Under the pieces are notes generated by a model, which was given only the letters and a program-made list of their open reading frames with translations, was not told the DNA's origin and did no database searches. A stretch of DNA of 64,000 nt from contig NZ_ABCK01000007.1 of the NCBI RefSeq assembly GCF_000170755.1, forward strand, positions 1 to 64,000, written 5' to 3'. Origin of the DNA: Lentisphaera araneosa HTCC2155. Its GTDB lineage: Bacteria; Verrucomicrobiota; Lentisphaeria; Lentisphaerales; Lentisphaeraceae. A program made the position numbers and the translations under genes. This document shows, piece by piece, positions 55,071 to 64,000 of the stretch; within the stretch, counting starts at the first letter, position 1, and each line of letters starts with the position of its first letter.

Positions 55071-55189
55071 ATTTGTACGCTATGCAATAATTTCTAATAT
55101 GATCTTACTCAAGAATGACGAAGTCGTAAATCAGCAGGTAGTGATATAAATAAATGACCGATTAAAGTATAAGATTGAGTAATACATGG

Positions 55190-56287
55190 ATGGAACTGAT
55201 GTTTAAAAATTTAGATGATTTATTGAAAAGCAAAAATAAGTATGTGCTTTATGAGGCAATTGCAGGTAGCCATGCTTATGGAACCAATCATGCAGGAAGT
55301 GACAAAGATATAAAAGGTATATTCATTTTTCCGGCGACGTATTATTTGTTGGAGGTTGATCCCATTAAGCAATTTTCAGATGATAAAAATGATATTGTTT
55401 ATTACAGTTTAAAAAGATTCATAGAACTTGCATCCAAAGCTAACCCAAATATTATCGAAATGCTATGGATGCCAATGGATTGTGAATTATATAGAAGCCC
55501 AATTGTTGAAAAGCTTTTTGCTTCGCGCGAAATGTTTATTACAAAGCAAGCTTATGATTCTCATGTTAACTATGCACGGGCACAAATTAAAAAAGCCAAA
55601 GGGAAAAATAAGTGGGTCAATAACCCCCAACCCATAGACACCCCTAAACGGGAGGATTTTTGTTGGTTTATTCCTCTGGAAAGCAATAAACCCTTTCGAC
55701 CGCAAAGTTTAAAGACCTGCAAGTTAAATCTAAATCACTTTCATGTCAGTGCAGTTGAGCACAGTCAATCACTCTACCGCTTGTATGAATATGGGAACAA
55801 AGCCAAAGGCGTTTTTAGAAATGGGGAGTTAGTTTGTGAGTCAATTCCTTTAGAAGATGAAGACCTCTTGTGTAAAGGCTTATTACTTTTTAATGAAGCA
55901 GCTTATGAATGTGCTCGCCGAGATCATAAAAATTATTGGGAATGGCGTAGTAAACGAAATGAAACTCGATGGATAGGTCAAGAAGAAGGACTAAGAGATT
56001 ACGATGCTAAAAACATGCTTCATACGTTTCGTCTACTTTTATCCGGTAAGAATATTCTAGAGAAGGGAGAACCCACGGTCAGGTTTAAGGGTGAGGAATT
56101 ACGACTCCTTTGTGATATCCGTGACGGTAAATTTCAGTATGACGAACTTATTCAGAAAGTAGAGATCATGCTAGATGAATTAAATAGTAGCTATTTGAAC
56201 TCAAATCTACCTGAAGAAGTTGATGAATCTAAGCTTAAAGAATTATTACTAAATATTAATGAATTGTGGGAAGTTCGAAATAAATGA
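55190..56287 (+). CDS. Polymerase-beta-type nucleotidyltransferase (COG3541 family), first copy
   Basis: About 365 residues. The start is uncertain: TTG 55175, ATG 55190 or ATG 55199, none with a good ribosome site. The catalytic motif is AIAGSHAYGTNHAGSDKDIKG, written here in parts as GSHAYG and GSDKD, the GSxxxGxxxxxSDxD pattern of pol-beta nucleotidyltransferases. A helical C-terminal domain with ANPNIIEMLWMP is typical of the predicted nucleotidyltransferases linked to RNA repair. It overlaps its neighbour by four bases. No RtcB, ligase or toxin-antitoxin partner is adjacent; target unknown. Confidence 0.8.
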   Translation: MELMFKNLDDLLKSKNKYVLYEAIAGSHAYGTNHAGSDKDIKGIFIFPATYYLLEVDPIKQFSDDKNDIVYYSLKRFIELASKANPNIIEMLWMPMDCELYRSPIVEKLFASREMFITKQAYDSHVNYARAQIKKAKGKNKWVNNPQPIDTPKREDFCWFIPLESNKPFRPQSLKTCKLNLNHFHVSAVEHSQSLYRLYEYGNKAKGVFRNGELVCESIPLEDEDLLCKGLLLFNEAAYECARRDHKNYWEWRSKRNETRWIGQEEGLRDYDAKNMLHTFRLLLSGKNILEKGEPTVRFKGEELRLLCDIRDGKFQYDELIQKVEIMLDELNSSYLNSNLPEEVDESKLKELLLNINELWEVRNK

Positions 56288-57045
56288 AAGAGCATATACA
56301 AAAAACTTTGAGTGATCTAGCAGAAAATGAACAAATTAAAATACTTTATGCCTGTGAAAGTGGAAGTCGAGCTTGGGGTTTTGCATCTCCAGATAGCGAT
56401 TGGGACGTGAGGTTTATTTATGTGAATCAATTAAATTGGTACTTAAATTTAGAAAAGAAATCAGATACTATCGATTTAATGCTTCCCTTGGAATTGGATT
56501 TAGGCGGTTGGGATTTACAAAAGGCTCTACGACTTTTTGCCTCATGTAACTTGGCACTTTATGAATGGATAAATAGTCCAAAAACATACCTGATAAACTC
56601 TGAATTTCATGTAAAAATTCAATCACTAATTCCGGGTTACTTTAGTGCTATTAAAGGTATGCATCATTATTTAGCAATGGCGAACAAAAACTTTGAATCA
56701 CATTTAGAAGGTACACAGATTAAAATAAAAAAACTATTTTATATTTTACGTCCTCTTTTAGCATGTGAGTGGATCTCAAACAAAAAAACTATGCCCCCAA
56801 CAGAATATCAACTTCTCCTCTCTTCTTCAAAACGTTTGTCTAACGATCGCTTAGATGAAGTTTTAAACTTTATGAAAATGAAAGAAACTGCAGCAGAAGG
56901 TTTTTTAATAGATCTATCAGAAGAATTGATTCAATGGATCTCCAATGAAATTGACTATTATAAAAATATAGCAAGAGATCTTCCGTCAGCCAAAGAAAAA
57001 GACTGGAAGCCGTTAAATCAACTCTTTATAGATTGTGTTAAGTAG
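56284..57045 (+). CDS. Polymerase-beta-type nucleotidyltransferase (COG3541 family), second copy
   Basis: A 253-residue relative of the upstream protein, with ESGSRAWGFASPDSDWDVRF as the catalytic region (GS...SDxD, third Asp expected in SDTIDLMLP). LALYEWINSPKTY matches the xxEWLxSP block of this family. The ATG overlaps the preceding stop codon, so the two copies are translationally coupled and may form a heteromer. Ends six bases before a convergent gene. Substrate unknown. Confidence 0.8.
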   Translation: MKEHIQKTLSDLAENEQIKILYACESGSRAWGFASPDSDWDVRFIYVNQLNWYLNLEKKSDTIDLMLPLELDLGGWDLQKALRLFASCNLALYEWINSPKTYLINSEFHVKIQSLIPGYFSAIKGMHHYLAMANKNFESHLEGTQIKIKKLFYILRPLLACEWISNKKTMPPTEYQLLLSSSKRLSNDRLDEVLNFMKMKETAAEGFLIDLSEELIQWISNEIDYYKNIARDLPSAKEKDWKPLNQLFIDCVK

Positions 57046-57436: not shown

Positions 57437-57880
57437 TTAAACGGCTGCGATCTTTACTAGGAAGCTATCGGGGATAGGAATAACGCGCGGCGGTTTTTGA
57501 AAAGTTCCATCATAGAGACAGCATGTGGCAGTATAGTTTCCCGTGAGAACTTTGTCCTCTGAGCCGTCTTTGTTAAGGCGAAACATATCGACTTGATAGA
57601 CTATTGCGGCAGAGCGAATGCGTTTGATGCTGAGGTCGACACGAATTTCATCTCGAAACTTTACCGGTTGAACAAATTTTACATTCATTTCACTACGAGG
57701 CCAACCGCTACCTTCTAAACTTTCATCAAATTCACCTACAACTTCTTCACCTATATGATCAAATAGAGCATATTCAGTTTCTTCGATCCAGTGAAAGTAA
57801 TTGCTGTGATGAACTATTCCACCGAGGTCAGTTTCATGAAGTCTTACGATATAAGTTTTTGAAAAGGAAGAAGTTTTCAT
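57437..57880 (-). CDS. YbgC/4-HBT hot-dog acyl-CoA thioesterase
   Basis: A 147-residue hot-dog-fold thioesterase. The active-site loop RLHETDLGGIVHHSNYFHW matches the DxxGIVYHxNY pattern of 4-hydroxybenzoyl-CoA thioesterase/YbgC enzymes, Asp being catalytic. It hydrolyses acyl-CoA or acyl-ACP thioesters. AGGAA precedes the ATG. It lies 31 bases downstream of the desaturase gene, in one minus-strand operon of lipid genes. Confidence 0.85.
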   Translation of the reverse strand: MKTSSFSKTYIVRLHETDLGGIVHHSNYFHWIEETEYALFDHIGEEVVGEFDESLEGSGWPRSEMNVKFVQPVKFRDEIRVDLSIKRIRSAAIVYQVDMFRLNKDGSEDKVLTGNYTATCCLYDGTFQKPPRVIPIPDSFLVKIAAV

Positions 57881-57911
57881 AGAGTTCCTAATTGTGTCAT
57901 TATTGCATTAA

Positions 57912-58808
57912 TTATTTAAGATTTTTCGGTAGTGCTTTAAAATCAGACACTAAACCGACACATTTCATCATATAGAGAATGTAGTAGGTGACGTCGAGTT
58001 CGCGTTTGCGAAAGCCTTGACGAATTGTATTGGGGTAATGATGATGGTTATTATGCCAACCTTCACCCAAAGTAATTAGAGCTAACCAGAAGTTATTTCT
58101 ACTTTGGTCACGAGTCTCATAGGTTCGAGAACCGTATTTGTGAGCCAATGAATTAATTGTGAAAGTTCCGTGGTATAGAATTAAAGTTGAAATAATAAAA
58201 CCCCAAACAAAAGCATTGCCCGCAGTGAGACCTAATTCAGGGAAATACATCGAAGAGAGTTTACCGAAAGCAATGATAAGCAAAGCGTAAACAACCGGAG
58301 CAAACCAATCAAAGCGATTGAGGAAAACGAGTTCTTTAAATTTCATCCAATCTCGAACATATTTTTTATTGGTGGGGAAGTGTTTTTCCGTTAAGAACCA
58401 GCCCATATGACTGTACCAAAAAGATCGCTGTACGGGTGAATGTGCATCGTCTTTTTGGTCGGAAAAGCGATGATGTTGGCGGTGGTGAGATGCCCACCAC
58501 AAAGGTCCTCGTTGTACTGATGCGCAGCCCAGGAAAGCAAAAATAAATTGGACTGGACGAGATGTTTTAAAAGTTTTATGAGAGAAATAGCGATGATAAA
58601 ATGCGGTGATTGCAAACATTCTAATGACATAAGAAAAGGCAAGTAGGGCAACACAAGCCCAGCTAAAACTTACCAATAGAGCTGATAAGGCAGCAAAGTG
58701 AAGTAAGATGAAGGGAAGGATACGTTTAAAATCTGTTTGGTCGGATGGGTTTTCGACTTGATCCAAAGCATCACTATCTAGCATTGATATGAGTGTTTTT
58801 AAGTTCAT
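57912..58808 (-). CDS. Acyl-CoA/lipid fatty acid desaturase (SCD/Ole1 type)
   Basis: A 298-residue membrane di-iron desaturase. Three histidine boxes are intact: HRYFSH (72-77), HHRQHH (about 107-112) and HNNHHH (about 254-259), as in stearoyl-CoA delta-9 desaturases. Four membrane spans surround them. It introduces a cis double bond in saturated acyl chains with O2. GGAG precedes the ATG. It starts directly at the end of the thioredoxin-fold lipoprotein gene (1-base overlap). Confidence 0.92.
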   Translation of the reverse strand: MNLKTLISMLDSDALDQVENPSDQTDFKRILPFILLHFAALSALLVSFSWACVALLAFSYVIRMFAITAFYHRYFSHKTFKTSRPVQFIFAFLGCASVQRGPLWWASHHRQHHRFSDQKDDAHSPVQRSFWYSHMGWFLTEKHFPTNKKYVRDWMKFKELVFLNRFDWFAPVVYALLIIAFGKLSSMYFPELGLTAGNAFVWGFIISTLILYHGTFTINSLAHKYGSRTYETRDQSRNNFWLALITLGEGWHNNHHHYPNTIRQGFRKRELDVTYYILYMMKCVGLVSDFKALPKNLK

Positions 58809-59362
58809 TATTGCTCCAAGTAATTGGCTAGTTTAAGCCATTTTTCATCTGAGAAACGGCCTTTATCACGATAAATAATTTTACCGTCGTTATCTAATAT
58901 AAAGATGTAAACAATTTCTTCATCATTTATTTCGAGATGTTTGTTAAATGATTCTTTATCGATATGAATCGTAATCACTTGAGAACGCATTTTTTCTGAG
59001 GTAATTCCACCTCTCATTCCACGATGTATCCACCATCGAACAGGGGCGGATAATTTAGAAATAGTGGGTATTTCATAGTAAGATAAGGTTTTTGGGTTTC
59101 CATTTACAACTTTTTCAATTTCAACATACCATTCATCTACCCATTCTTGTTGCCAACGCTGATAAGCAACCACGCAAATGGTTTGATCTTTCTCCAAACA
59201 ATTGGGAAATGTTTGTTCATTTCCTTGGAGGTCTAAGCCACCAACTATTGGAAAATAATCTTTACTACTGGTTTTTACTTCGCTTGTTCCGACTGAGCAA
59301 GAAGAAATAAATAAAAGTAAGAGGGCGAATGAAATGAAGCTGGCGATAATTCGTTTTTTCAT
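58808..59362 (-). CDS. Thioredoxin-fold lipoprotein without active-site cysteines (ATP10-like)
   Basis: A 184-residue lipoprotein with lipobox ending ISSC (Cys22). The mature part looks like a thioredoxin fold: TICVVAYQRWQQEWVDEW, RSQVITIHID, EEIVYIFILDNDGKIIYRDKG and a final helix. There is no CxxC. The segment APVRWWIHRGMRGGI followed by these strands recalls the mitochondrial assembly factor ATP10, so this could be a chaperone-like relative; assignment is weak. Overlaps both neighbours. Confidence 0.55.
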   Translation of the reverse strand: MKKRIIASFISFALLLLFISSCSVGTSEVKTSSKDYFPIVGGLDLQGNEQTFPNCLEKDQTICVVAYQRWQQEWVDEWYVEIEKVVNGNPKTLSYYEIPTISKLSAPVRWWIHRGMRGGITSEKMRSQVITIHIDKESFNKHLEINDEEIVYIFILDNDGKIIYRDKGRFSDEKWLKLANYLEQ

Positions 59363-59745
59363 GAACTTAATTTCCTGTATGAATAAAATGACATGAGAGC
59401 TAATACTAATTCTAAAATAAGAAAACTAAGATGGTTACCTTGCAGCCCATGAATTCCAAGACCAATGATTCTGCCTCCTGCAAAGCCCAGTAGTGAAATT
59501 AAACATACAAATGCTGCAGCTTTGGCATCGCCTTTAGCGAGTCCGGCAAACACAGCTATGGCAATTGCCAATTCTAAGCCCCCATAAATTGCCATAATTT
59601 CAATTGTTGAACTAGCCGTGAGCTCCGTGTAGCCAAGAGATGGTGCAAATTTTTCAGGAGCTAAGAAAAACATGATACCAAAGATGCCATAGAGGATCCC
59701 TACAACGAATAAGCTGATTTTAGCTGATTTTTGATTTTTAAACAT
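59359..59745 (-). CDS. DUF4345 membrane protein
   Basis: A 128-residue protein with four membrane helices (about residues 8-28, 45-70, 75-95, 100-122). The pattern EIMAIYGGLELAIAIAVFAGL and AFVCLISLLGFAGGRIIGL fits DUF4345. Function unknown. First gene of the minus-strand lipid operon; its stop overlaps the lipoprotein start as ATGA. Confidence 0.78.
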   Translation of the reverse strand: MFKNQKSAKISLFVVGILYGIFGIMFFLAPEKFAPSLGYTELTASSTIEIMAIYGGLELAIAIAVFAGLAKGDAKAAAFVCLISLLGFAGGRIIGLGIHGLQGNHLSFLILELVLALMSFYSYRKLSS

Positions 59746-59792
59746 ATAGATATTCCAAATTTTTTTAAAGATATACCACTTTCAAAAAAAAA

Positions 59793-59811
59793 TGAACGTT
59801 TTGAACGTTTT
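59793..59811. promoter_or_regulatory. Tandem GAACGTTTT motif between divergent lipid operons
   Basis: GAACGTTTT occurs twice in direct contact (59794-59802, 59803-59811), each containing the palindrome AACGTT, in the 135-base divergent promoter region. It could bind a regulator common to both operons; no regulator gene is in view. Confidence 0.4.
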
Positions 59812-59880
59812 TGTTTTGTTTTTTTTGGTTTAGGGCCATAATGTTACTAATGGATACACAACAAAATAGAAGAACACAAC

Positions 59881-60627
59881 GTGAATAAACCCTTGATTAA
59901 TAAAGTAATATGGATATGTGGAGCTAAGACTGGAATCGGTTTGGCGGTGGCAAAAGAATTAATCCAAAAAGGTGCACGTTTGTGTGTTTCATCTCGTGAT
60001 GGTCAAGTAGTTAAAGAACTTGAAGGGCGAGTTAAAGCATTAAAATGCGACGTGAAATCGATGGATGATTGGCATCATTGTGCAAAGGAAATTACTGAAG
60101 AATTTGGAAAGCTCGATATTTTTATTTACAATGCAGGGGATTGCACATACGTCGATGATGTGGAGATAAAAGCAGAAGATTTTGAAACCATGATGGATAT
60201 TAATTTTCATGGCATGGTCAGAGCGGCACAAGTTGTTCTTCCCTTACTCAAAAAAAGCCAATCAGCCCAATTTGTGGGTATGGCTAGTTCGGTGGCTTGG
60301 TTAGCTTTACCACGAGCCGAAGCCTATGGAGCTTCAAAAGCGGCAGCTCATTATTTTTTAAAAAGCTTAAGACTCGATCTCTCACAATATGGAATTGACG
60401 TGAGTATTATTTGCCCAGGATTTGTTAAAACACCCATGACCGACAAGAATGATTTCCCCATGCCTTTTTTGGTAAGTTCTGAAAGAGCCGGACGAGAAAT
60501 TTGCCAAGGAATTATCAAGCGCAAGCCCGTGATTCACTTTCCCAAACGTTTCACTTATTTAGTTAAATTCATAGCAGCCTTACCTCACTTTTTGGAATTT
60601 CGTATTTGCAGGAGTTTTGCCAAATGA
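59881..60627 (+). CDS. Short-chain dehydrogenase/reductase
   Basis: A 248-residue classical SDR starting with GTG (GAAGAACAC upstream). NAD(P)-binding WICGAKTGIGLAVAKEL (TGxxxGIG form), NAG in YNAGDC, active-site Ser in MASSVAWL and YGASKAA with catalytic Tyr-Lys. First gene of a plus-strand operon with FAD amine oxidase, DUF1365 and CFA-type methyltransferase genes. The next gene overlaps its stop codon by four bases. In other bacteria this operon is linked to oxidative or light stress and membrane lipid change. Substrate unknown. Confidence 0.88.
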   Translation: MNKPLINKVIWICGAKTGIGLAVAKELIQKGARLCVSSRDGQVVKELEGRVKALKCDVKSMDDWHHCAKEITEEFGKLDIFIYNAGDCTYVDDVEIKAEDFETMMDINFHGMVRAAQVVLPLLKKSQSAQFVGMASSVAWLALPRAEAYGASKAAAHYFLKSLRLDLSQYGIDVSIICPGFVKTPMTDKNDFPMPFLVSSERAGREICQGIIKRKPVIHFPKRFTYLVKFIAALPHFLEFRICRSFAK

Positions 60628-61874
60628 AAAAAATTGCCATAATTGGAACGGGAATTTCTGCTCTAACCACCGCCTATAAATTGCATGGTGATTATGAAGT
60701 CCATCTCTATGATAAAGCCGATTACATAGGCGGTCATACGAATACAATTCAAGTGCCTGAGGGCGATAAAACCTTGTCGATTGATACAGGATTCATTGTT
60801 TTCAATGATTGGACTTATCCAGAATTTATTAAACTCATGGATGAATTAGGTGTCGAATCTCAGTTTAGCGATATGAGTTTTTCAGTTAAATGTGAGGATT
60901 CAGGTCTCGAATATAATGGCACGAATACCAACAGTCTTTTTGCTCAAAGGCGCAATATCCTCAATCCCAAATTTTGGAAAATGATCAAGGATATCCTAGA
61001 CTTTAATAAAGCTGCTTTGCAGTGGCTAGAAAGCGCAGATGAAAGCGATGCCACAAGCCTAGCTGAATTTATACAACCTTATGGAGCCATGTTTAAGGAA
61101 AAGTATTTATTTCCGATGACAGCAGCCATTTGGTCTGCTGGAAGAGAGTCAGTAGAAAAATTTCCCTTGCGTTTTTATTTAAATTTTTTCAAAAATCACG
61201 GTTTTTTATCTGTAGACGATCGACCCGTTTGGCGAGTCATTAAAGGTGGATCCAATTCATATGTTGAGCCCCTGAGCGCGAGTTTTAAAGAAAATATTCA
61301 TTTGAATTGCGCAGTTCGCAAAGTTGAACGTTTTGAAGACCGAGTTGAACTCACAAGCGATCAAGGTAAGGAGCTTTTCGATGGTGTGGTTTTTGCTTGC
61401 CATAGTGATCAAGCCTTAAAGATTTTGGAGGGTGGCAACTCAAAAGAAGCTGAGATTCTGGGAGCCATTCCCTATGATAAAAATACGGCGATTCTTCATT
61501 GGGATGAAAAAGTCTTACCTAAGCGCAAGCTCGCTCATGCAGCGTGGAATTATCACCTAGAAAAAGCTGGGGTAGAGGACCAAGCCAAGCTCACATACAA
61601 CATGAATATTTTACAATCATTGGATTGTGAAAAGATATATAATGTAAGTTTAAATTATGACAAAATTGAACCTGAAAAGATCATTAAAACTATTCAGTAC
61701 AGTCACCCTGTTTTTACTTTGAAAGGAGTTGAGGCTCAAATGAGAAAGAAGGAAATTTGTGGTCACAATCGCAGTTTCTTCGCAGGCGCTTATTGGCGTT
61801 TTGGTTTTCATGAAGATGGTGTGATGTCCGGTTTAGATGCCGCAGAACGCGTTAGGGAGGTTTTGCCAAAATGA
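60624..61874 (+). CDS. FAD-dependent amine oxidase-like flavoprotein (COG2907, UfaD-like)
   Basis: A 416-residue flavoprotein from ATG 60624, which overlaps the SDR stop as ATGA. FAD-binding KKIAIIGTGISALTTAYKL, then YDKADYIGGHTNTI and DTGFIVFNDWTYPEF, a strong COG2907 hallmark; C-terminal GAYWRFGFHEDGVMSGL. It resembles a phytoene desaturase-type fold. The family is encoded beside CFA-like methyltransferases, and one member, UfaD, acts on methylated phospholipid acyl chains in furan fatty acid formation. That role is inferred here from context. Confidence 0.88.
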   Translation: MKKIAIIGTGISALTTAYKLHGDYEVHLYDKADYIGGHTNTIQVPEGDKTLSIDTGFIVFNDWTYPEFIKLMDELGVESQFSDMSFSVKCEDSGLEYNGTNTNSLFAQRRNILNPKFWKMIKDILDFNKAALQWLESADESDATSLAEFIQPYGAMFKEKYLFPMTAAIWSAGRESVEKFPLRFYLNFFKNHGFLSVDDRPVWRVIKGGSNSYVEPLSASFKENIHLNCAVRKVERFEDRVELTSDQGKELFDGVVFACHSDQALKILEGGNSKEAEILGAIPYDKNTAILHWDEKVLPKRKLAHAAWNYHLEKAGVEDQAKLTYNMNILQSLDCEKIYNVSLNYDKIEPEKIIKTIQYSHPVFTLKGVEAQMRKKEICGHNRSFFAGAYWRFGFHEDGVMSGLDAAERVREVLPK

Positions 61875-62647
61875 CAAAGTTCACAAAATCTGCAATTTAT
61901 ACTGGTTGGGTGAGACATCGGCGTTTCCTACCTGCAAAGCATGAGTTCACTTATAAAGTTTATCTCACATGGATAAATTTAGATGAAGTAAATAAATTGT
62001 TTACTAAGGGCCCTTTGCTCTCTCGTAGTAAGTGGCCTTCAATGATTGCCTTTAGGAGAAAGAATTACCTGCGATCATCTAAAGAAGATCTCTTGCAAGC
62101 CTGTCGTGCAAAAGTGAGCGAAGATCTTTCCTTTGATTTTGATGGAGAAGTCTGCATTCTGACAAATTTGCAGTATTTCGGTCTCTGTTATAATCCTGTA
62201 AGTTTTTATTATTGTTATGGTAAGGATGAAAATCTTAAAGCCATAATTGCCGAAATCAATAATACGCCCTGGAATCAACGTCACTCATATTGCATTGATA
62301 TGCGAGAAAAGAACTACAAAGATTTTGACAAAGATTTTCATATTTCCCCCTTCATGCCCATGGATATTAATTACCATTGGGCTTTTGGTCCAGCTAAGGA
62401 AAAACTAGCTGTCAAAATGCAGAATTTTCATAAAGAAAAACAAATGTTTGATGTGGATATGCAGCTCGAACGCCAAGAATGGTCAACAGCTCGAGTTCTT
62501 AAGTATAGTTTACTGTATCCACTCATTCCTCTGAAAGTTATTTGGGGGATTTATTATCAAGCACTGCGTTTGAAAATGAAAAAAGTTCCCTTTTACGATC
62601 ACCCCAAATTAAGTGCCGATGAGCACAAGGAGCCTAGCCATGGATAA
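61871..62647 (+). CDS. DUF1365 family protein
   Basis: A 258-residue DUF1365 protein: SAIYTGWVRHRRFLPAKHEF at the N terminus, LTNLQYFGLCYNPVSFYYC and EINNTPWNQRHSY are family signatures. ATGA overlap with the flavoprotein gene and overlap with the methyltransferase gene. DUF1365 almost always sits in this gene order; its function is unknown but it must belong to the lipid pathway. Confidence 0.92.
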   Translation: MTKFTKSAIYTGWVRHRRFLPAKHEFTYKVYLTWINLDEVNKLFTKGPLLSRSKWPSMIAFRRKNYLRSSKEDLLQACRAKVSEDLSFDFDGEVCILTNLQYFGLCYNPVSFYYCYGKDENLKAIIAEINNTPWNQRHSYCIDMREKNYKDFDKDFHISPFMPMDINYHWAFGPAKEKLAVKMQNFHKEKQMFDVDMQLERQEWSTARVLKYSLLYPLIPLKVIWGIYYQALRLKMKKVPFYDHPKLSADEHKEPSHG

Positions 62648-63893
62648 TACAAAACTAGCAACGAATAAGAGCCTCTTGGGTAAGCGTTTATCATTACCCG
62701 ATCAAGTCTGTAAAAATCTTTTCATCAAAGTGCTATCGCAAATCAAACGCGGCCGCTTAGTGATGCATCACGCCGGTGAAAGTCATGAGTTTGGCAAGGC
62801 AGGAAGCGACATTGATGCTGAAATTCACATTCATCAGAACTCGGTATTTAGCGATTTTGTCCTCGGTGGAAGTTTGGGTTGTGGAGAATCCTATATTCGA
62901 GGAGAATGGACAAGCAATAATTTAACCGAGTTTATTCGCTTATTTGCAGTAAACATGGATGTGGTCGACAAAATTGATGGCTTCCTGCCTCGCCTAATCA
63001 ACCCTTTCCTTCGTGGTCTGCATTGGTTAAGTCGCAATACACGCAGCGGTTCTCGCAAAAATATCGAAGCTCATTATGATTTGGGGAATGATTTTTTTGA
63101 ATTGTTCTTGGATGAAACGATGATGTACTCATCTGCGATTTATCCCAAGTCAGACTCAAGCCTCTTCGAAGCACAGCAACATAAACTTAAAGTGATATGC
63201 GATAAACTGCAGCTCTCGAATCAAGATCACCTTTTAGAAATTGGTACTGGTTGGGGGGCTTTAGCGATATACGCAGCGGAGCATTACGACTGCAAAGTGA
63301 CGACAACGACGCTTTCTCAAGAGCAGTATAACAAAGCAGTCGAAAGGGTGAAAGAGAAAAAATTAGAAGATAAAATCACCGTGCTTATGCAGGACTACCG
63401 CGACTTAGATGGTCAGTTTGATAAGCTCGTTTCCATTGAAATGATTGAAGCCGTGGGGCATGAGTACTTACCAAATTACTTTGAATCCTGCTCGTCACTA
63501 CTCAAAGAGGATGGCCTCTTCCTCATGCAAGTCATTACAATTCCAGATCAACGTTATGATTCAGCGCGCAAAGAAGTTGACTTCATCAAGCGTTACATCT
63601 TTCCTGGCTCCTGTATTCCCTCAGTTGAACGAGTCATGTCTTGTGTAAAAAGTGAAAGTGATATGCGTTTGTTGGATCATCGCGATTACACGGGTGATTA
63701 TGAACGCACACTTAATGCTTGGGGCAAAAACCTCCAAGACCATCGATCTCAAATTAAAGATATGGCCGGAGAAGATTTCCTAAGAATGTGGGAAATGTAT
63801 TTTGCCTATTGTGAAGGTGGATTCTCAGAAAGAGTGATTGGCGTCGCACAAATGGTCTTTGCTAAACCTCACAACAAATCGGAATTAAGATGA
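62640..63893 (+). CDS. Cyclopropane-fatty-acid synthase-type SAM methyltransferase (UfaM-like)
   Basis: A 417-residue enzyme from ATG 62640 (AAGGAG seven bases upstream; earlier ATG at 62613 lies inside DUF1365). CFA-synthase N-terminal part GESYIRGEWTSNNLTEFIRL, then NIEAHYDLGNDFFELFLDETMMYSSAIYP in parts, SAM-binding LEIGTGWGALAIYAAE, and SIEMIEAVGHEY. It adds a methyl(ene) group to the double bond of phospholipid acyl chains. The operon partner set points to a methylated or furan fatty acid route rather than plain cyclopropane formation (inference). Confidence 0.92.
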   Translation: MDNTKLATNKSLLGKRLSLPDQVCKNLFIKVLSQIKRGRLVMHHAGESHEFGKAGSDIDAEIHIHQNSVFSDFVLGGSLGCGESYIRGEWTSNNLTEFIRLFAVNMDVVDKIDGFLPRLINPFLRGLHWLSRNTRSGSRKNIEAHYDLGNDFFELFLDETMMYSSAIYPKSDSSLFEAQQHKLKVICDKLQLSNQDHLLEIGTGWGALAIYAAEHYDCKVTTTTLSQEQYNKAVERVKEKKLEDKITVLMQDYRDLDGQFDKLVSIEMIEAVGHEYLPNYFESCSSLLKEDGLFLMQVITIPDQRYDSARKEVDFIKRYIFPGSCIPSVERVMSCVKSESDMRLLDHRDYTGDYERTLNAWGKNLQDHRSQIKDMAGEDFLRMWEMYFAYCEGGFSERVIGVAQMVFAKPHNKSELR

Positions 63894-63980: not shown

Positions 63981-64000
63981 ATGAATCAACGACTATTTAG
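63981..64000 (+). CDS. Possible start of a further gene (3' partial)
   Basis: An ATG at 63981 preceded by AAGAAGAAAATT opens a frame (MNQRLF) that runs out of the window after six codons. Nothing can be said about its product. Confidence 0.3.

Follow-up and report, generated by a model that had tools for sequence, protein, structure and literature searches.

The window analysed here is the first 64 kb of contig C7 (327,870 bp) of a genome of 6,023,180 bp in 81 contigs. Its eight ORFs between 57437 and 63893 have Pfam matches that fit the named families, and they form two divergent gene sets with a gap of 135 bp between them (59746-59880; Table 1). Outward from this gap, the left operon runs through the genes for a DUF4345 protein, an ATP10-like lipoprotein, a desaturase (DES) and a thioesterase (TE), and the predicted right operon consists of a short-chain dehydrogenase (SDR), a UfaD-type flavoprotein, a DUF1365 protein (UfaO) and a UfaM-type methyltransferase, followed by a MerR-type regulator (REG) as its last gene. 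The preliminary description of divergent lipid operons sharing a promoter region is borne out by the ORFs, their families, the gap and a layout kept in four relatives; it had missed the operator in that shared region, the regulator, and the link to light and photo-repair. For UfaD and UfaM, 60624 and 62640 are probably the true starts, since ribosome-binding-like AGGAG/GGAG sequences precede them. Scans for sigma-70 promoters and terminators gave little above shuffled controls. Elsewhere in the window (55175-57045, + strand) there are two adjacent nucleotidyltransferase-type-looking ORFs; the relatives that were checked do not have them next to the unit.

Table 1. Features of the divergent locus, in positions of the window
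Feature	Position	Strand	Evidence
TE, YbgC/FadM-like 4HBT acyl thioesterase	57437..57880	-	Pfam 4HBT 7e-10; TIGR00051 below cut-off
DES, membrane fatty acid desaturase	57912..58808	-	PF00487 FA_desaturase 3.7e-22; three His boxes
ATP10-like predicted lipoprotein, lipobox Cys22	58808..59362	-	PF05176 ATP-synt_10 1.5e-5, just above cut-off
DUF4345 membrane protein, first gene of left operon	59359..59745	-	PF14248 3.3e-8
Candidate operator TGAACGTTTTGAACGTTTTT in divergent promoter region	59793..59812	.	core conserved in five genomes
SDR, short-chain dehydrogenase, first gene of right operon	59881..60627	+	PF00106 5.8e-45
UfaD-type NAD/FAD flavoprotein, COG2907-like	60624..61874	+	PF01593 Amino_oxidase/NAD_binding_8 8.4e-23
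UfaO (DUF1365), furan-forming oxygenase family	61871..62647	+	PF07103 6.3e-74
UfaM-type SAM-dependent fatty acyl methyltransferase	62640..63893	+	PF02353 CMAS 4.1e-89
REG, MerR-HTH regulator gene	63981..64724 on contig (63981..64000 within window)	+	HTH_17 2.3e-7

In the furan fatty acid pathway described for R. sphaeroides and R. palustris, UfaM methylates vaccenate on phospholipids, the NAD/FAD flavoprotein UfaD (RSP1091) forms a methyl-diene and the DUF1365 protein UfaO (RSP1090) inserts an oxygen derived from O2 (PMC7380195). The three enzymes are enough for 9M5-FuFA in R. palustris, where their genes are contiguous (RPA2569-2571). As DUF1365 is the UfaO family, the set of UfaM, UfaD and UfaO is complete inside the window, and the UfaO that the preliminary description proposed to look for past position 64000 is the DUF1365 protein already within it. 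The three genes are contiguous here, and the same holds for nearly all of 80 named loci picked by UfaO similarity, which come from Pseudomonadota, Nitrospirota, Marinimicrobia, Planctomycetota and other groups; almost all related loci have UfaD, the same kind of protein as RSP1091, adjoining UfaO. The earlier reading of the locus in terms of furan fatty acids is well supported by the protein families, the order of the genes and the active-site residues, and would put a complete pathway into a non-proteobacterial lineage, unlike that of R. sphaeroides and R. palustris. A further difference from these two species is the presence here of the divergent desaturase/ATP10/DUF4345/thioesterase operon and of a MerR regulator.

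The methyltransferase shares the CMAS family with E. coli Cfa (6BQC), scores well against Cfa models and has Cfa enzymes as its closest solved structures. Furthermore, the DUF1365 family is broad and mostly uncharacterised, and the window UfaO shares only about 24-30% identity with most members from the same phylum that do not belong to its own family. These observations would fit a cluster that ends at methyl-branched or cyclopropane-type chains, with UfaD and UfaO homologues that are inactive or act on other lipids, an outcome that we regard as quite improbable. At Cfa positions 139/236/239/266/268/317, the residues are C/G/E/H/I/Y in E. coli and S/E/E/Q/I/Y in the window enzyme, i.e. the equivalents of Glu239, Ile268 and Tyr317 are retained, whereas Cys139, Gly236 and His266 are replaced by Ser, Glu and Gln. 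The combination of E236 and Q266 is found in 81/81 scorable UfaO-linked CMAS enzymes, which the window enzyme resembles in this respect, arguing against a plain cyclopropane synthase. With the Gly236/His266 active site absent and Glu/Gln in its place, we rejected an assignment as E. coli-type Cfa; judged against the UfaO-linked homologues, an enzyme of the UfaM kind is well supported. Also speaking against an early end of the pathway, the order of UfaD and UfaO and the operator are conserved in five genomes, and UfaO keeps the invariant residues of its family, including H16, R18, N108, P109, N131, T132, Y140, K154 and S159-P160-F161.

Another 73 CMAS proteins of the same ufaDOM neighbourhoods carry E236, H266 and F268 and are about 24-30% identical to the window UfaM. 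FufM, the ring methylase, has 26% identity to the UfaM of R. sphaeroides, and by this level of identity the group, which occurs beside ufaDOM in many phyla, provides a lead to candidate FufM-like enzymes. The residue markers would tell three groups apart: UfaM-like enzymes, Cfa of the E. coli type and a FufM-like group. A profile search of the genome found one strong CMAS only, the window UfaM, so that a monomethyl product is predicted; unlike in R. sphaeroides and R. palustris, there is no strong second CMAS and hence no FufM candidate.

An AlphaFold2 model of UfaO (mean pLDDT 91) gave no significant match to solved folds (best E 0.012, TM about 0.3), with a weak calycin-like or FABP-like trend, and so points to no particular cofactor; a sequence search of the PDB found no DUF1365 relative. 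Going by the model, UfaO may be an O2-using enzyme that has a previously unseen fold and no known cofactor. A plasmid search returned DUF1365 proteins only, all at <37% identity, and a literature search gave no lead on Lentisphaera lipid data.

Comparison with two relatives of the same genus (G201, G202) and two of the same family (G199, G200) showed that the layout DES - ATP10 - DUF4345 <-> SDR - UfaD - UfaO - UfaM - REG is kept in all of them. Since these four represent two genera and the protein identities are 30-92%, the gene arrangement is not due to chance. The ATP10-like protein and DUF4345 are unchanged in position in all four, and Cys22 of the former is invariant in five family members; this synteny agrees with the earlier proposal of both proteins as new members and supports their assignment to the unit. 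The thioesterase adjoins DES also in G201 and G202, and its homologue in G199 stands alone with an operator site of its own. The SDR is part of the operon in the four relatives; of the distant loci, a minority have an SDR match close to ufaD. In G202, G199 and G200, a space of ~520 bp between ufaM and REG codes for a membrane protein, which in G202 is a DUF2878 protein (PF11086, 3.4e-23). In the genome studied here, the DUF2878 gene that had been suspected past position 64000 is found on contig C1 instead, where it adjoins a Chalcone_3 gene and has a copy of the same operator. In a tree of UfaD made with a quick method and no bootstrap, 33 same-phylum proteins are separate from the five of the family, which make up a single clade nested in a group of mainly proteobacterial and Marinimicrobia sequences (SH-aLRT 95 and 99); this placement suggests lateral acquisition.

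Another question is whether the left operon belongs to the pathway at all. More than one third of the distant ufa loci are without a nearby desaturase, and the furan acids of R. sphaeroides come from vaccenate (PMC7380195). The left operon could then be a separate cold or envelope-stress unit sharing the promoter region by accident, which we hold to be improbable. Against it, the divergent pairing with the operator in between is kept in five genomes, and the operator next to the lone thioesterase homologue of G199 points the same way. Moreover, a DES homologue lies immediately 5' of ufaD, on the same strand and at <300 bp, in 28/80 named loci (not a census, as the loci were chosen by UfaO similarity), among them loci of Xanthomonas, Methylophilaceae and Lysobacter, and within 3 kb of ufaD in a few further loci. 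Several loci from the same phylum also have it in the neighbourhood of their ufa genes. The DES His boxes HRYFSH / HHRQHH / HNNHH are invariant in 8 homologues. The genome has two desaturases; outside the lpx cluster, a FabA-family search of it found no dehydratase of the FabA type. Together with the repeated linkage of DES and ufaD, this lends support to the earlier proposal that DES would supply the unsaturated substrate to the Ufa enzymes, although such a step is without biochemical precedent in the furan pathway and the delta-9 specificity also proposed is not readable from the sequence. The pathway would thereby be tied to a substrate-supplying desaturase found in many unrelated genomes. 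Within the lpx cluster, between lpxC and lpxA, a single 317-aa ORF (C6:248898-249713) contains two FabA/FabZ hotdog domains of the FabZ type.

The motif TGAACGTTTTGAACG(T/A)T is common to the divergent regions of the five genomes, with differing flanks, and two copies are conserved in tandem. Exact copies of TGAACGTTTTGAACG occur at four sites in the genome studied here (C1:7588, C7:59793, C11:62793 and C15:67291), where 0.015 are expected from base composition, and at 3-5 sites in each of the relatives; the reversed sequence used as a control gave none in this genome and few single-mismatch matches in the relatives. A single-mismatch site on C5 is probably a chance match, since it falls inside an ORF. 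The genes at the operator sites are those for DUF2878 and Chalcone_3 on C1, for RudS (2-thiouracil desulfurase-DUF1722), an NmrA-DUF2867 protein and a flavin reductase on C11, and for a fasciclin-SOUL protein on C15. In G202, G199 and G200 they include a photolyase, a cryptochrome/photolyase and a DPRP photolyase-related protein. As no operator with up to 3 mismatches accompanies the photolyase genes checked in the present genome (C1, C4, C15), its link to photo-repair rests on RudS and on the relatives. In several cases the site is no more than tens of bases from a start codon, which would suit a repressor.

The candidate for this role is REG, which has an N-terminal MerR-type HTH (MerR 4e-4, in addition to the HTH_17 match). 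Among 198 genomes of the class, five have REG orthologues and the same five hold 3-5 exact operators; four further genomes have one operator copy each, which is the level of the reversed control. Since the five genomes all belong to one family, this co-occurrence amounts to one or two evolutionary events, for which the sister genome G086 is the informative case: it has ufaO and ufaM, is without REG and has no operator. We infer that REG binds the operator and would act as a repressor.

In Pseudomonas, class II LitR (PplR/PmlR) controls phrB, an SDR, an FAD oxidoreductase, UfaM and cryB (PMC9758184), and RudS is found in operons of this type. The set described here is similar in its SDR, FAD oxidoreductase, UfaM and RudS, in the MerR-HTH regulator beside the cluster and, in the relatives of the window, in its photolyases, so that by gene context REG resembles LitR. 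Class II LitR proteins have a MerR HTH, keep the 4-helix B12-binding_2 domain, have lost the second B12 domain and have a short LOV partner; they recognise T(G/A)TACA-N12-TGTA(C/T)A, unlike the TGAACGTTTTGAACG operator found here. The match of REG to PF02607 (B12-binding_2) is very weak (E 0.1; 0.09 in the G202 orthologue), with no second B12 domain among the matches listed up to E 10. Because of the different operator and the weak B12-type match, we do not file REG as a class II LitR.

The operator might instead serve another factor, as the -35 element of an ECF sigma factor or the site of a different repressor, with REG a mere neighbour. GAAC is a common ECF -35 motif. In R. sphaeroides, RpoE-ChrR responds to singlet oxygen and controls the genes for furan fatty acids as well as a photolyase, and ChrR-like Cupin_7 proteins occur in 4/6 genomes of the family. 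Yet G200, with the unit and 4 exact operator sites, lacks Cupin_7, leading us to reject RpoE-ChrR (ECF11) control; a tandem-repeat operator with a MerR-type regulator also differs from that sigma/anti-sigma system. The tandem copies are conserved, but no fixed -10 was found in the region after them, which argues against an ECF promoter, and REG and the operator go together throughout the six genomes of the family, the negative case G086 among them. Overall, we consider control by a factor other than REG rather unlikely. One of the Cupin_7 proteins, at C35:5578-6198, has two ChrR-like domains and is also found in G201, G202 and G199 (one match); at about 237 aa, its ORF looks unlikely to hold a separate anti-sigma domain.

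Taken together, the locus seems likely to be a furan fatty acid unit within a light/photo-oxidative-stress regulon. By analogy with Pseudomonas LitR, light would be the signal: in the dark or without stress, REG would occupy the TGAACGTTTTGAACG sites near start codons and repress both divergent operons, and a light-derived signal would free it from the operator. DES would then use O2 to make cis-unsaturated chains and, if the reactions are those worked out in Rhodobacter and Rhodopseudomonas, UfaM would methylate the double bond of a phospholipid chain, UfaD would introduce a second one beside the methyl group, and UfaO would insert an O2-derived oxygen, closing the ring of a monomethyl furan. 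An accessory role would fall to the SDR and, from the left operon, to the thioesterase, the ATP10-like lipoprotein and DUF4345, and the furan acids may serve as sacrificial antioxidants of the membrane. More speculatively, the light-controlled, O2-dependent desaturase might give UfaM/UfaD/UfaO delta-9 chains, placing the ring at C8-C11 (e.g. from 16:1 delta-9) rather than yielding the 9M5 type, with REG as a new B12-free MerR-family light regulator that has its own tandem operator. On a practical matter, the analysis provides a precise operator and a candidate regulator for a probable photo-protection regulon. Photolyase/cryptochrome genes also form two closely similar two-gene pairs in this genome, at C1:266682-269258 and C15:45184-47761.
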